Shown here one piece after another: positions 1,371 to 6,537 of a stretch of DNA of 6,537 bases; within the stretch, counting starts at the first letter, position 1, and each line of letters starts with the position of its first letter. Source of the DNA: an uncultured Asticcacaulis sp. (GTDB taxonomy: Bacteria > Pseudomonadota > Alphaproteobacteria > Caulobacterales > Caulobacteraceae); NCBI GenBank assembly GCA_946480525.1, contig CAMLLA010000243.1:1-6537 (forward strand). The letters are read 5' to 3'. A program made the position numbers and the translations under genes. The notes below the pieces were generated by a model. It did no database searches and was not told where the DNA came from. It worked only from the letters and a program-made list of their open reading frames with translations.

Positions 1371-2549
<1,179 letters not shown>

Positions 2550-2680
2550 TTACGCCGTCGTTGTTCGCGGCGCGTTCATTCTTGGATTACGGTAAACAAC
2601 GCGGCGCGGCGTGAGCTTCAGCGGTCGGGGAGTAAAGGGATACCTAAGGCCATCTGCCGGAAGCAGGATCGGCGCCAAAA

Positions 2681-2694
2681 TGTTACCGGTAACA
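2681..2694. promoter_or_regulatory. LacI-family-type operator palindrome
   Basis: TGTTACCGGTAACA is a perfect 14-base palindrome centred on CpG. This is the layout of sites bound by LacI-family repressors, and similar sites are known at sugar-uptake and TonB-receptor genes in Caulobacter relatives. It lies 146 bases upstream of the esterase ATG and directly beside a plausible -10 box read on the - strand, a position suited to blocking initiation. No regulator gene is present in the window. Control of the esterase by a sugar-responsive repressor is inference. Confidence 0.7.
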
Positions 2695-2846
2695 GAAGCT
2701 ATTACATCAGACAATTTCCGTCAATCGCGTAATTCTGCTTTTCGGGGAACACGGTCCGGCCCGCAGGCTCTGTAACTGACTGCGGCGCAGTGGTATTGTC
2801 TTAGGGAATATTTTAACGCGGTTCTTGTCGGACAACAGAAGCTATT
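2691..2846. repeat. Pair of 13-base direct repeats (2691-2703 and 2834-2846)
   Basis: AACAGAAGCTATT occurs exactly twice, 143 bases apart, both copies in the gene-free region. The first copy overlaps the right half of the operator palindrome and the putative -10 of the esterase promoter. The second is preceded by a degenerate GGAC where the first has GGT, so the palindrome itself is not duplicated. It could be a duplicated regulatory half-site, the footprint of a small insertion, or chance. Confidence 0.6.
2696..2724 (-). promoter_or_regulatory. Possible sigma-70-type promoter of the esterase
   Basis: On the - strand, TTGACG (complement of 2719-2724) is a good -35 box, followed after 17 bases by TAGCTT (complement of 2696-2701) as a weak -10. 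The palindromic operator begins one base further downstream and would cover the start site. The -35 match, the spacing and the operator position support the call; the -10 is poor. The 5' leader would be about 150 bases, and I see no clear riboswitch or attenuator in it. Confidence 0.38.
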
Positions 2847-3291
2847 CGTCGGCACCAATGCAGTTTATTTCCGCAATTGGCCCTTAAGAGACATTGGTGG
2901 GCATTCTAGCGCTACGAAAGCGGACGTACGCTGGCAACACTGGAGTTGACGCTTTCCAGACAATCGGTTTGGCAATATGCAAGTCAGCGGACAGTCTAGG
3001 GCGTATCTCACGAATGGTCCGTTACTAAAGTAGTCGTGACTGTTCTTCCGAGGTGATCGTGGATGACATGCTCGCCCATTGAAGTTAATCCCTCCCTTTT
3101 CAAATCCCGTTGATCGGAATAGAAATTTAGCTTGCGCGCATTTTTCAGCTTGGAGCGCACCTTAAAGCACGCGATAGTTGTTTCCATGGTTCGCGGATAG
3201 TGAGCAGATCATCTCCTGGTGGTATTGGTAGCCAGGCACCCACAGGGAGGAACGCGCGCTGCCCAAAAACGACGACAAGGGGGCATCAAGT
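2725..3291. other. Gene-free region between the sugar locus and the ATPase operon
   Basis: About 570 bases with no credible coding frame on either strand; every frame is short or lacks protein-like composition. GC sampled by hand is about 48-55 percent, below the receptor and esterase. Besides the repeats listed separately, AGCGGAC recurs at 2919-2925 and 2986-2992. No tRNA, CRISPR or integrase fragment is recognised. The promoter of the downstream operon should lie near its right end; only weak boxes are visible there (for example CTTGGA, an 18-base gap, then GATAGT, around 3150-3180), not good enough to call. Confidence 0.6.
2853..2899. repeat. Short inverted repeat in the intergenic region
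   Basis: CACCAATG (2853-2860) and CATTGGTG (2892-2899) are exact inverse complements separated by 31 bases. There is no T-tract after it and no gene beside it, so it is not a clear terminator. The match is short enough to be chance; recorded as a low-confidence structure within the likely junction. Confidence 0.3.
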
Positions 3292-3948
3292 ATGCCTGAA
3301 AGCCAGAGCGGTATCGAGCTTGGTTCCCGGTACCGCGACGCGCTTCGACTACTGTTTATTCTGGAAGCCGGCGCTGAGACTGAAACTGAGCCGACCGACA
3401 CTGTGGTCAAACGTTTCCGCGCCGAAAAGCGTCTGATGGCTATGGACTTTCTTGTTCGTTACCCTGACTACCTCGCTGATGCATTGCTCGACCGCTATCA
3501 GGAAACGCAAGATCCAGAACTTCTCATCGAGGTCCAAAAGATATTCGACACTGACGAGCCATCGATCAGGCTTGTACGCATGGTCCGCTGGCATCACGGC
3601 GCCTATCAGAATGTAGAAGAGGCGCTATCCACCCTCAGTTACTACGGCTTGATCCAACCCATGCAGTTCAAATCCGAGGATGGCAAGGTTCGGCATTACG
3701 AGTATCTGATCTCGCCAAAAGCGCTGACCTTTCTCAGCACCTGTGTCGAGGAATATAAGGATCTCGGATGGTACCGCGACCGGTTAAAGCTGGTCATGCG
3801 GGTTGCCACCGGAAAGAGTGGCACGGCGATGAAAGAGTGGCAGTACGAGCACCCGGCTTACGCGGCGACGGTGCAAGGTGATTTCATCCCAAGCATTCGC
3901 GACCAGGTACATAAGCGACTTTCCGCCATCAAAGGAGCGGCCAAATGA
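3292..3948 (+). CDS. Small probable winged-helix protein, first gene of the SMC-like ATPase operon
   Basis: A 218-residue soluble protein with no signal peptide or membrane segment; I do not recognise a named family. Residues 10-26 (SRYRDALRLLFILEAGA) and 41-70 (FRAEKRLMAMDFLVRYPDYLADALLDRY, read in two parts) look helical. Residues about 90-150 resemble a winged helix-turn-helix: helices through IRLVRMVRW and NVEEALSTLSYYGLI, then a basic wing (GKVRHYEYLI) and SPKALTFLSTCVEEY. The C-terminus is charged. Position and size suit a partner of the ATPase, comparable to middle components of ABC-three-component/Lamassu systems or to KITE-type subunits (MukE, JetB); a DNA-binding autoregulator is the main alternative. 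The ATG has AAGGGGG (3277-3283) eight bases upstream. The same frame is open back to 3232, and a stronger GGGAGGA (3245-3251) faces an in-frame CTG at 3259, so a slightly longer product is possible. Its stop overlaps the next start as ATGA. Confidence 0.87.
   Translation: MPESQSGIELGSRYRDALRLLFILEAGAETETEPTDTVVKRFRAEKRLMAMDFLVRYPDYLADALLDRYQETQDPELLIEVQKIFDTDEPSIRLVRMVRWHHGAYQNVEEALSTLSYYGLIQPMQFKSEDGKVRHYEYLISPKALTFLSTCVEEYKDLGWYRDRLKLVMRVATGKSGTAMKEWQYEHPAYAATVQGDFIPSIRDQVHKRLSAIKGAAK
3931..3937 (+). promoter_or_regulatory. Ribosome binding site setting the ATPase start
   Basis: AAAGGAG lies inside the last codons of the upstream gene, seven bases before the ATG at 3945. It fixes that ATG, which overlaps the upstream TGA, as the start of the ATPase and indicates translational coupling between the two proteins. 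Confidence 0.8.
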
Positions 3949-5933
3949 CAAAACGTCGCGAAATCGAATCGACTGAAAAAGGCTGGATCAAAGCCATTGC
4001 CGAAGACAGCCAGAACACCGAAGCGGATGTCCGCTCGGTTCTGCAGAGGTTTGGCGTCAAAGCTCAAACGGCACCACCGCGCGCGAAGAGCCTACGTTTC
4101 CACAGCGTGAAAATCCGCGGCACGCGTGAGGCGTCTGAAAACGACGGCGAGTTTGAACTCATCTGGGACAAACTTGATGCCGGGCTCTGGGCAGTTATGT
4201 CGGAACGAAATCTGCGGGGTAAGTCGTCGTTATTGAACCTTTTGCATGCCAGTCTTCGGGGTGATTTTCCGGGCCGGCTGAAGCCCGACATCTGGAAATG
4301 GCTGGCGTATGTCGAGGTCGTCTATTCGATCGACAATGTTCGGCACAAGACGCTGCTTGAAAAAGACGCCGGCGAAGAAGACCATGAAGTGACACGAGCC
4401 ACCATCAGCCGCCTCAATAATGGAAACTGGGTCGAGCTCTACGCTGGTGACGGCGCGGGGGGTCTCAAAGCCGAGACTGAATCTTTGATGATGTCGGAAC
4501 TCGGTTTCACGCCCATTTTTGCGCATAACTCGAGAACGGGCGGACATGCGCATGGCTGGCCGCTGATTTCGTCCGCACTGTTTCTCTCCAGCGATTCGGA
4601 GAACAAGGCACTTTTCGGCGATATTGTGATGGACGCCATTCCGCTTCGCCTGCTCCAGCTCTTTATCGGCATGCCTTGGGTGTCGACCTACAGCGCGGCA
4701 CTGACAGCGTGTAAATTTGAAACTGAGCAGACGACGCAATCGGAAGGGACGGGCTTGCGCGCGGCTCTGACGGAGCGTCTGCTCTCAGTCGAATCCGATC
4801 TGATGGCCGCCCGCGTAACCGCGGCCGCCGAAGGCAATCGCGCCGATAAGCGCAAGGCGCTCACAAGCCTGGACAGTCAGATCGTCGAAGCACGAAAAAC
4901 TGCCACGCAGTCGCGCGAGACACTTGAGGCGAGCGCGACAACGGTCGAAAACGTCGGCGCCAGTTTCGATGAAGCCAGGCGGCGACTTAAACGTCTCCAA
5001 GACGAGCAGTCCGCCGGCTATTCCTTCCGCAAGCTAAGTCCAAGCTGCTGTCCAGCCTGCGAAGCGTCTTTCACGTCGATCGTTGCTGGGCCCGAACCCG
5101 TTGCAGACGGATCCTGCGTACTTTGCAAAAACACGCTCCCACCGTCAGGTGACGATGTCGCCAATGCCCACATTGCTGACGCCAAACAACAGGTCGATGC
5201 TCTGCAAGCTGCGTTGAATGAGGCCAAGGTTGCGGCCAAGACGGCCAAGGCTAGAGAGGAAACGGATCGAAATCACGTAACCTCACTAAAGATCCAGATT
5301 GACGCGCTTCAGGACGCGTTGTCTCAACTGTCAGCCGAACCTGAAATGACCGTTGTGCAACTGGAGGCCAAGCAGCAACAGCTGGCGGAAATGATCGCCG
5401 CCCTTGACACGCCTACAGTAGCGGCCTCGCAGAGTGCTGCCGAGGTGGACATTCTCAAATCGGCCGCCGAAATTAGCAAAGCGCTGATGATGACGCTGCA
5501 AGAAGAGGTGCTCGGCGAATTGTCTGCCTCCGTCATGGCGCTGGCGCAGAAGTTCGGCGTGTCGAACGTGAGCAGTATGCAGCTGGATAATGGGGGACGA
5601 CTAAAGGTGCATCAGGGGGGCGCAGATACGTTCTTCGGAAAAATGACGGTCGGCGAGCGTCTGCGCATCAAAATCGCCATCGCACTGGCGGCCGTCGAAG
5701 TCGCCAAAAGCCGCGGCTTCGGCCGCCACCCTGGTCTGTTGGTTATCGATTCGCCGGCATCCGAAGAAGTAGTGACGACGGATTTTCAAGAGATGCTTGA
5801 CAGCGTCTCGGCTGCCGCTGAGGCGATCGGTGACATTCAGATCATCATCGGCACCATCGCCCGCCAGGCTGTCACGGCTGTCGTACCGGAATCGCATCGA
5901 CTGCACGCCAAGGGCGATGCGTACCTATTCTAA
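3945..5933 (+). CDS. SMC/Rad50-like ATPase with zinc-hook-like coiled-coil apex and altered P-loop
   Basis: A 662-residue protein. Residues 1-48 are charged and probably helical; the ATPase N-lobe begins near SLRFHSVKIRG (49-59). The P-loop position reads ERNLRGKSSLLN (87-98), keeping GKSS (92-95) but lacking the first Gly of GxxGxGKS. A family-specific lobe follows (about 115-262). Two Ala/Glu/Lys/Gln-rich coiled-coil arms (about 270-360 and 405-485) flank CPAC (369-372) and CVLC (391-394), a four-cysteine zinc-hook or zinc-ribbon apex. The C-lobe has the ABC signature-like MTVGERLRIKIAIALA (567-582) and Walker B LLVIDSPASEE (598-608), where Ser603 replaces the usual Glu; Glu607 or Glu608 might serve instead. 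The switch His is not evident in IIIGTIARQ. Arms of about 85 residues are much shorter than in SMC, MukB or Rad50. It is expected to dimerise through ATP heads and apex and to act on DNA or ends with its operon partners. DndD, RecN and LmuB are relatives in fold, not close matches. No truncation is seen. Confidence 0.95.
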   Translation: MTKRREIESTEKGWIKAIAEDSQNTEADVRSVLQRFGVKAQTAPPRAKSLRFHSVKIRGTREASENDGEFELIWDKLDAGLWAVMSERNLRGKSSLLNLLHASLRGDFPGRLKPDIWKWLAYVEVVYSIDNVRHKTLLEKDAGEEDHEVTRATISRLNNGNWVELYAGDGAGGLKAETESLMMSELGFTPIFAHNSRTGGHAHGWPLISSALFLSSDSENKALFGDIVMDAIPLRLLQLFIGMPWVSTYSAALTACKFETEQTTQSEGTGLRAALTERLLSVESDLMAARVTAAAEGNRADKRKALTSLDSQIVEARKTATQSRETLEASATTVENVGASFDEARRRLKRLQDEQSAGYSFRKLSPSCCPACEASFTSIVAGPEPVADGSCVLCKNTLPPSGDDVANAHIADAKQQVDALQAALNEAKVAAKTAKAREETDRNHVTSLKIQIDALQDALSQLSAEPEMTVVQLEAKQQQLAEMIAALDTPTVAASQSAAEVDILKSAAEISKALMMTLQEEVLGELSASVMALAQKFGVSNVSSMQLDNGGRLKVHQGGADTFFGKMTVGERLRIKIAIALAAVEVAKSRGFGRHPGLLVIDSPASEEVVTTDFQEMLDSVSAAAEAIGDIQIIIGTIARQAVTAVVPESHRLHAKGDAYLF

Positions 5934-5944
5934 TGACGCCATGA
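5931..5944 (+). promoter_or_regulatory. Stop-start coupling junction (TAATG ... ATGA)
   Basis: The ATPase stop TAA (5931-5933) overlaps an ATG at 5933 that encodes only Met-Thr-Pro before TGA (5942-5944), and that TGA overlaps the ATG of the third gene (5941). No Shine-Dalgarno sequence precedes 5941, so ribosomes finishing the ATPase probably reinitiate here. Whether the three-codon frame is used is unknown. Confidence 0.5.
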
Positions 5945-6537
5945 ACGCACTAGAGGCCAAACTGCTGCATGCTGGCGCTTCAGATGGACCTGCGGGTTTG
6001 GATCAAACCACACTCATACAGGCGGTGGGTGAACTCGATAGCGAGGCCGACTTCGCGGACGGGTTCAGCTGGTTATGCAAATGGCACGGGATAGAGCCTG
6101 TCCAGGAAGCCCTCCTGTGGATGCTAGGTCAGGCCGAGGATGGCCTCGTCCTCGCGGAATTGGTGGATGCGCTAGGGCAGCATGCCGCCTTGTCACCGAT
6201 GCTCCGACGCGGCGCGTACGACATTTTTCGTTTGGTGTTCAATGACCAGACCTGCCATCCCTGGTCGCGATCGCAGGCTTTGCGAGGCGCTCTTGTCGTC
6301 GCTCAGGACGACCCGAGCCTCATCCGGCGCTTCCAATCCGACCTTTTGGATATCCGAGAAGATGATGACGAAGGCTATCTTCGAAATGCCGCCAAGATCG
6401 TCGGCGCCATTCTTAGACGGTTTCCGCATGACGACTACCGTCAACTTCTGGTCCGATTATCAGGTGTCAGTGGCGCTGTAGATGAAGCCTCGCTTGAACT
6501 TGGATTTGATGAACTCAGGCAGGCGCTCGGCGCAGGC
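5941..6537 (+). CDS. Alpha-helical, repeat-like protein of unknown function, third operon gene (3' partial)
   Basis: The frame is open for 199 codons from ATG 5941 to the window end with no stop, so only the N-terminal part is visible. The residues are protein-like and strongly helical: LEAKLLHAG, TLIQAVGELDSEADFADGF, then pairs of amphipathic helices such as VQEALLWMLGQAEDGLVLAELVDAL (read as two helices), RGAYDIFRLVF, SQALRGALVVAQDDPSLIRRF, YLRNAAKIVGAILRRF and ASLELGFDELRQAL, a pattern like HEAT or TPR-type scaffolds. No catalytic motif, signal peptide or membrane segment is visible so far; an effector domain could follow downstream. Seven bases separate it from the ATPase stop. An in-frame ATG at 5917 would add MRTYSNDA and overlap the ATPase by 17 bases, but its AAGGG is too close; 5941 is preferred, not certain. 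It is most likely a third subunit of the same system. Confidence 0.85.
   Translation, partial: MNALEAKLLHAGASDGPAGLDQTTLIQAVGELDSEADFADGFSWLCKWHGIEPVQEALLWMLGQAEDGLVLAELVDALGQHAALSPMLRRGAYDIFRLVFNDQTCHPWSRSQALRGALVVAQDDPSLIRRFQSDLLDIREDDDEGYLRNAAKIVGAILRRFPHDDYRQLLVRLSGVSGAVDEASLELGFDELRQALGAG

Follow-up and report, generated by a model that had tools for sequence, protein, structure and literature searches.

The Lamassu immune systems are the closest described relatives of the locus analysed here. In Vibrio cholerae, the DdmABC system consists of an SMC-like ATPase, a small protein and an effector with a nuclease domain and a second domain; in DdmABC and other Lamassu homologues the LmuA effector is reported to be liberated and to assemble into a homo-tetramer, which activates the nuclease domain (PMC12409362). 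In DdmA a Cap4 domain comes first and the C-terminal domain behind it is unidentified; the genes are ordered A-B-C, ending with the SMC-like protein (PMC12409362). The layout given in a review likewise places the LmuA effector domain at the N-terminus, with a variable and possibly docking C-terminal part, and makes LmuC the middle component; LmuB is about 650 amino acids (aa) long, with a CPxC tip, a hook resembling CPxCG in many homologues and a Walker B glutamate generally replaced by glutamine (PMC10586767). Proposed triggers are DNA hairpins or DNA ends (PMC10586767, PMC12904381), and a system of Lamassu type II, the type defined by LmuC, protected Escherichia coli from at least one phage (PMC8565338). 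Here we describe a three-gene operon, lmuC-lmuB-lmuA, in a 6,537-nucleotide stretch of contig CAMLLA010000243.1 (assembly GCA_946480525.1, an uncultured Asticcacaulis sp.), the whole of which we call the window. An earlier reading, made from the sequence alone, had proposed it as an undescribed defence system.

Identity and layout of the operon

All three proteins match Lamassu models in PADLOC. LmuC matches PDLC03872 (E 2.5e-76) over residues 8-217 of 218; LmuB matches PDLC03864 (E 1.1e-173) at nearly full length, residues 9-662 aligning with profile positions 3-657; and LmuA, from the 199 residues present, matches positions 2-206 of the 655 in PDLC03853 (E 7.9e-31). With all three subunits matched, there is no difference from Lamassu type II at the level of these models, the third gene being cut in the present contig. 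By these matches the operon is a Lamassu immune system, a putative defence against phages and plasmids, already recognised by existing detection models. It looked unnamed because Pfam and NCBIfam scans give no family above the cut-off for any of the three proteins. The sequence-only reading had suspected a defence operon of the Lamassu/ABC-three-component kind, and the three PADLOC matches bear this out; they also contradict its statements that the system is undescribed and fits none of the known ones exactly. It had itself named matches of all three proteins to one known system as the result that would speak against novelty, and with that result the novelty is refuted. It had further found no LmuA-type nuclease in front; LmuA is present but lies behind lmuB, and its nuclease-like domain would fall beyond the window end.

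Gene content, gene order, homology, motifs and model folds together make it very probable that this is a Lamassu type II (ABC-three-component) operon in which LmuB acts as DNA sensor, LmuC as adaptor and LmuA as a solenoid with a C-terminal nuclease. Membership of Lamassu is in itself ordinary, and the new detail is modest, consisting of the effector assignment and a mirrored layout. The mode of action can be proposed by analogy with V. cholerae DdmABC, from which the DNA trigger, docking side, release or oligomerisation, nuclease activity and cell death are all carried over. A LmuB dimer would sense abnormal phage or plasmid DNA, with LmuC as a winged-helix-like adaptor, and the N-terminal HEAT-like solenoid of LmuA would probably dock on LmuBC. 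DNA-sensing, ATP-bound LmuBC would then release or oligomerise LmuA, and the freed effector would cut DNA through its C-terminal PD-(D/E)XK-like nuclease, aborting the infection.

Compared with the review layout (PMC10586767), the present arrangement is mirrored: lmuB stands in the middle and lmuA last, and within LmuA the solenoid comes first and the nuclease-like domain after it. It also differs from DdmABC in having the ATPase in the middle and, to judge from relatives, the nuclease-like domain at the end of the last gene. The accessible portions of PMC10586767, PMC8565338, PMC12409362, PMC12904381 and PMC12799240 do not describe a mirrored Lamassu layout; the last of these concerns nuclease-protease pairs. 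A literature search, with subscription journals mostly outside its scope, listed no title or abstract opening on a C-terminal nuclease in LmuA, no paper with both Lamassu and PDDEXK, and neither of the names Lamassu-PDDEXK and Lamassu-Hypothetical. A PDDEXK type of Lamassu appears in subtype lists elsewhere, so the nuclease type itself may already have a name; the mirrored subtype, too, may already be listed by name elsewhere.

Conservation and genomic surroundings

The protein database holds 63 relatives of LmuB besides itself at E <= 0.001. A genome scan with a 27-sequence alignment of LmuB relatives gave 38 loci, and a single-sequence scan gave none; identity is 26-56% over the best segments, and the loci belong mostly to Alpha-, Beta- and Gammaproteobacteria, with some acidobacterial genomes. 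The order lmuC-lmuB-lmuA is kept across these loci, as the sequence-only reading had suggested checking. The open reading frame (ORF) directly upstream of lmuB is related to the window LmuC, at a phmmer E of 1.7e-31 or better, in 34 of the 35 loci compared. In the one that lacks it, L018, the sequence upstream is limited to about 250 bases; the comparison left out L035, L036 and L038, where LmuB was matched only in part. Downstream, a third ORF follows in 38 of 38 loci and reaches at least 603 aa in 37. In the remaining locus (L035, 9986-10735) the third gene yields a protein of just 249 aa and LmuB, too, is matched only in part; this is probably a decayed system. All ten of the third ORFs scanned by PADLOC, out of the 38, are full-length LmuA. 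The three genes thus keep together; an ATPase mostly without its two neighbours, which the earlier reading had named as a second argument against itself, is not what these loci show. A Bryobacterales metagenome-assembled genome (G005, locus L026) contains two separate LmuA matches of the present branch.

Relatives also occur on mobile elements: 26 of 72,556 plasmid records contain a LmuB relative at E <= 1e-20, and among 50,697 phage records none does at E <= 1e-10. Each of the three plasmid loci examined carries the complete C-B-A trio, and their nine proteins all match the same three PADLOC models. Among 14 control genomes a LmuA match appeared in one, Methanosarcina acetivorans. On a Mesorhizobium plasmid (L118, 1252-3162 and 11707-13783), a RES-domain pair and a TIR-domain gene lie a few kb before the trio and an IS66 transposase lies after it, a mobile, defence-like neighbourhood.

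The sequence-only reading had called for a test of enrichment near defence genes. For this, 30 of the 38 loci were considered, with ORFs of 200-900 aa and the near-duplicate L004 dropped, and a random 117 of 142 eligible flanking ORFs from 28 loci were searched. They matched 156 PADLOC families at E <= 1e-15, the 25 listed including GajA (3e-200), GajB, type I restriction-modification, SspF, PD-T7-1 and AbiEi. As a control, six arbitrary 12-kb stretches, all from one genome, supplied 48 ORFs, which matched 46 families; among the 25 listed are mad3, RtcR, reverse transcriptases and a Cas1-type model. Because of redundancy in the family counts, and of a control that is small, confined to one genome and not clean, enrichment around the relatives is suggested at most. 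Of the best 25 of 72 flanking Pfam families, 20 are single hits, metabolic ones included.

The LmuA effector and rival explanations

The window LmuA and the LmuA of one relative (L001) are identical at 91 of 199 aligned residues. In that relative the N-terminal part, ahead of the nuclease-like block, is predicted to form a HEAT-like solenoid, and by this comparison the window fragment corresponds to the alpha-solenoid part. The block itself follows the pattern GRxD-x12-ExK..Q..Y and occupies residues 499-568 of 629; nine of its positions are invariant in 41 of 41 aligned LmuA sequences and a tenth is kept in 40. The secondary structure predicted there, a helix (499-512), two strands (532-536, 539-548), a second helix (554-566) and a third strand (575-582), would fit the alpha-beta-beta-alpha-beta order of a PD-(D/E)XK core. 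An effector at the LmuA N-terminus, as in the usual review layout, is not the case in the relatives, which is a departure from that layout and not from a defining feature of Lamassu. Pfam gave no family above the cut-off in any of ten full-length LmuA relatives, and the names listed for relatives are hypothetical or uncharacterized protein.

In profile-profile comparison the E..RAD..EIK motif of the MmcB family (23 sequences) falls in register with the LmuA C-terminal domain at P 0.00096, and a NUDIX control (18 sequences) gave P 0.23 without a matching motif register. The sets comprised matched stretches only, from 23 of 25 MmcB loci (two contig-edge loci omitted), 13 of 15 Cas4 loci and 18 of 25 NUDIX loci, with the weaker Cas4 loci L086-L092 unused. 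An earlier run, in which reciprocal BLAST hits within a set length defined the family members, had given P 0.0027 for MmcB, 0.04 for Cas4 and 0.51 for NUDIX, its Cas4 set including short, probably non-Cas4 ORFs and its MmcB set one doubtful row. Likeness to Cas4 was withdrawn as support for a nuclease when the clean sets gave P 0.11. The resemblance to the MmcB-like PD-(D/E)XK family lies in the register of RAD..EIK; the helix with Q..Y falls outside the aligned stretch, and the MmcB model has no solenoid fusion. Cas4 and DpnII-MboI are weak matches of single members. Among 31 C-terminal LmuA domains, Pfam gave 11 families, all sub-threshold, including DpnII-MboI in three domains (best E 0.12) and AHJR-like and MmcB-like in one each, all three of them PD-(D/E)XK families. 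PADLOC matched LmuA in 31 of 31, Cas4 in one (E 0.014) and DrmC in one (E 0.034). By motif and profile, the last gene of the present branch probably encodes the effector as a nuclease at its C-terminus, and the relatives indicate that the corresponding domain of the window LmuA would lie beyond the contig end.

Several observations weigh against this picture. The window LmuA stops before the nuclease-like domain, and model confidence in the relative falls below 50 at residues 519-528, adjoining the putative active site. The HH probability for MmcB is just 22%, and the Cas4 profile (13 sequences; P 0.11, HH probability 0.5%) does no better than the NUDIX control although its GxxD..ExK aligns. 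Eight of the 11 sub-threshold Pfam families are non-nuclease families, one of which has the best E (0.048). Structure searches did not confirm the nuclease fold, since the Foldseek and VIA lists for LmuA were filled by the solenoid (VIA mainly by residues 1-391). No credible match emerged when the sequences of LmuA, LmuB and LmuC were searched against solved structures, although Lamassu structures have been published.

Candidate structural matches were set aside. That to 8erw (E 3.1e-9) is a sum over repeats of about 30 residues, each at E 75 or worse; that to 6j6f (E 1.5e-4), an entry for an envelope glycoprotein, extends over 58 residues in the helical part of LmuA; and a further list of 58 solved-structure matches (best E 0.011) holds mostly coiled-coil proteins. 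Of 1214 Foldseek matches to the LmuA model of L001, two reach E <= 0.001; one is a clathrin adaptor and the other a designed protein, both generic helical repeats. With the LmuC model, 0 of 868 reach this threshold. No Lamassu entry stands among the best 50 matches listed in each of four structure-search lists, which excludes nothing. Some LmuA proteins have unusual architectures: that of L030 (10925-13348; 807 aa) carries a long extension past the nuclease-like domain, Ala/Lys/Arg-rich at first, and that of L033 a shorter one. A 574-aa protein (P0100) has 90% identity to LmuA over only 17% of its length, the rest being Clp/AAA-type Pfam domains; it is a fusion or a misassembly.

Among the other explanations, an LmuA whose C-terminal domain is not an active DNA nuclease, but cuts RNA or serves for binding as an inactive PD-(D/E)XK fold, is rather unlikely. 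DNase activity is argued only from the motif, from weak matches between profiles and from the secondary structure predicted, which leaves room for such a domain; the whole predicted catalytic set is nevertheless kept in 41 of 41 sequences, unlike a decayed fold. That the operon is an undescribed defence system, distantly parallel to Lamassu, is very improbable, and we reject it. Scans above the Pfam and NCBIfam cut-offs are empty, the public names listed go no further than ATP-binding or AAA domain-containing protein, or call the proteins hypothetical or uncharacterized, and gene order and effector position are unlike the review description (PMC10586767); against this stand the near full-length PADLOC matches of LmuC and LmuB and the clear N-terminal match of LmuA, repeated in relatives.

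A Wadjet/MksBEF-type plasmid-cleaving condensin shares with the operon an SMC-like ATPase in immunity and a winged-helix-like partner, and there are weak JetC matches (best E 0.034), but the LmuB match is incomparably stronger, the 662 aa of LmuB compare with JetC profile lengths of 1068-1361, and no JetA, JetB or JetD model matches the three proteins of the window at E <= 1. The sequence-only reading had itself reported no JetD-like gene and an ATPase shorter than JetC, and we reject Wadjet as next to inconceivable. LmuB also has a likeness to Rad50 (its match to the NCBIfam model for archaeal SMC-related protein has E 3e-7 and 29.4 bits, where the cut-off is 300), as it would in a housekeeping DNA-repair operon of Rad50 type with no immune role. 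Its relatives, however, are scattered over Pseudomonadota, acidobacterial genomes, Streptomyces plasmids and one methanogen, they include the plasmid-borne ones, and defence and mobile genes are among their flanking ORFs; a repair operon is accordingly also rejected, as highly improbable.

LmuB motifs, flanking genes and implications

The features of the window are collected below.

Genes and LmuB motifs in the window, with positions on the forward strand
Feature	Position	Strand	Description
TonB-dependent receptor, C-terminal 421 residues	3-1268	+	NCBIfam TIGR01782 (TonB-Xanth-Caul), E 6.7e-90; cut by contig start
Esterase gene	1371-2534	-	Pfam PF00756, E 1.3e-18
lmuC	3292-3948	+	218 aa, small winged-helix-like adaptor subunit
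lmuB	3945-5933	+	662 aa, Rad50/SMC-like ABC ATPase
Degenerate Walker A SERNLRGKSS	4200-4229	+	First Gly of GxxxxGK replaced by acidic residue
Coiled-coil tip, two CxxC pairs (Cys369, 372, 391, 394)	5049-5126	+	CPAC 369-372 and CVLC 391-394, between short coiled coils
ABC signature TVGERLR	5646-5666	+	G570, E571 and R574 in 36/36
Walker B LLVIDSP	5736-5756	+	Ser replaces usual catalytic Glu; D602-S603-P604 in 36/36
lmuA, 5' part	5941-6537	+	ATG at 5941, frame open to window end, N-terminal 199 residues only

Motif counts for LmuB refer to 36 rows, the window and 35 loci. Position 87, in the degenerate Walker A, is E or D in 28 of them, and Gly92-Lys93 are both present in 34. Slow ATP turnover is plausible because the Walker B motif reads Asp-Ser-Pro throughout and lacks the usual Glu, although Glu608, invariant and four residues past Pro604, might substitute for it. 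Thirty-three rows retain the full set of four tip cysteines; L012, L030 and L032 each lack at least one, and L012 is probably frame-broken. Rad50-type hooks have a single CxxC per chain. The zinc hook of the sequence-only reading holds in so far as two CxxC pairs stand at the coiled-coil tip, but the term is approximate with four Cys per chain, which could bind one zinc within the chain. LmuB resembles the LmuB of the review in length and in its CPxC tip; Ser here and Gln there point in the same direction, towards slow hydrolysis (PMC10586767).

The tight packing reported earlier agrees with the ORF list: on one strand, an ATGA overlap (3945-3948) joins lmuC to lmuB, 7 bases separate the end of lmuB (5933) from lmuA, and the contig end cuts this third gene. 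Purine-rich sites resembling ribosome-binding sites precede lmuC (AAGGGGG, 3277-3283) and lmuB (AAAGGAG, 3931-3937). Upstream, the gene-free, lower-GC stretch described between metabolic locus and operon is also there: positions 2535-3291 (about 750 bases, between the esterase gene and the operon) contain only short ORFs of chance size, and their guanine-plus-cytosine (GC) fraction is about 0.51-0.53; the metabolic half has 0.61-0.64, and the operon varies between 0.53 and 0.61. Acquisition of the operon as a cassette is plausible because of this lower GC and the 26 plasmid records with LmuB relatives. In the metabolic half, the receptor's match to TIGR01782 (302.6 bits) is just below the cut-off of 310. 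The esterase covers only positions 339-694 of the 694-position NF041944 (bifunctional xylanase/feruloyl esterase; 531 bits against a cut-off of 1200) and is probably, by its sequence, a single-domain carbohydrate esterase.

The candidate new system can be struck from the list and filed as Lamassu, and the LmuA of the present branch can now be assigned as a probable nuclease with candidate catalytic residues, among them E544 and K546 in the numbering of L001. Whether these features together define a mirror-image Lamassu branch, with the order C-B-A, a LmuA that starts with a HEAT-like solenoid and ends in a PD-(D/E)XK nuclease, a LmuB with Ser for Glu and a four-Cys tip, is in our estimation evenly balanced. 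If such a branch exists, LmuA would be tethered through its N-terminus, a sensor with ATP bound but hardly any hydrolysis would set it free as a nuclease, and the effector would be attachable from either end. If the mirrored layout holds, it would be the docking of the effector on LmuBC, and not the end at which the effector domain stands, that matters for Lamassu activation.

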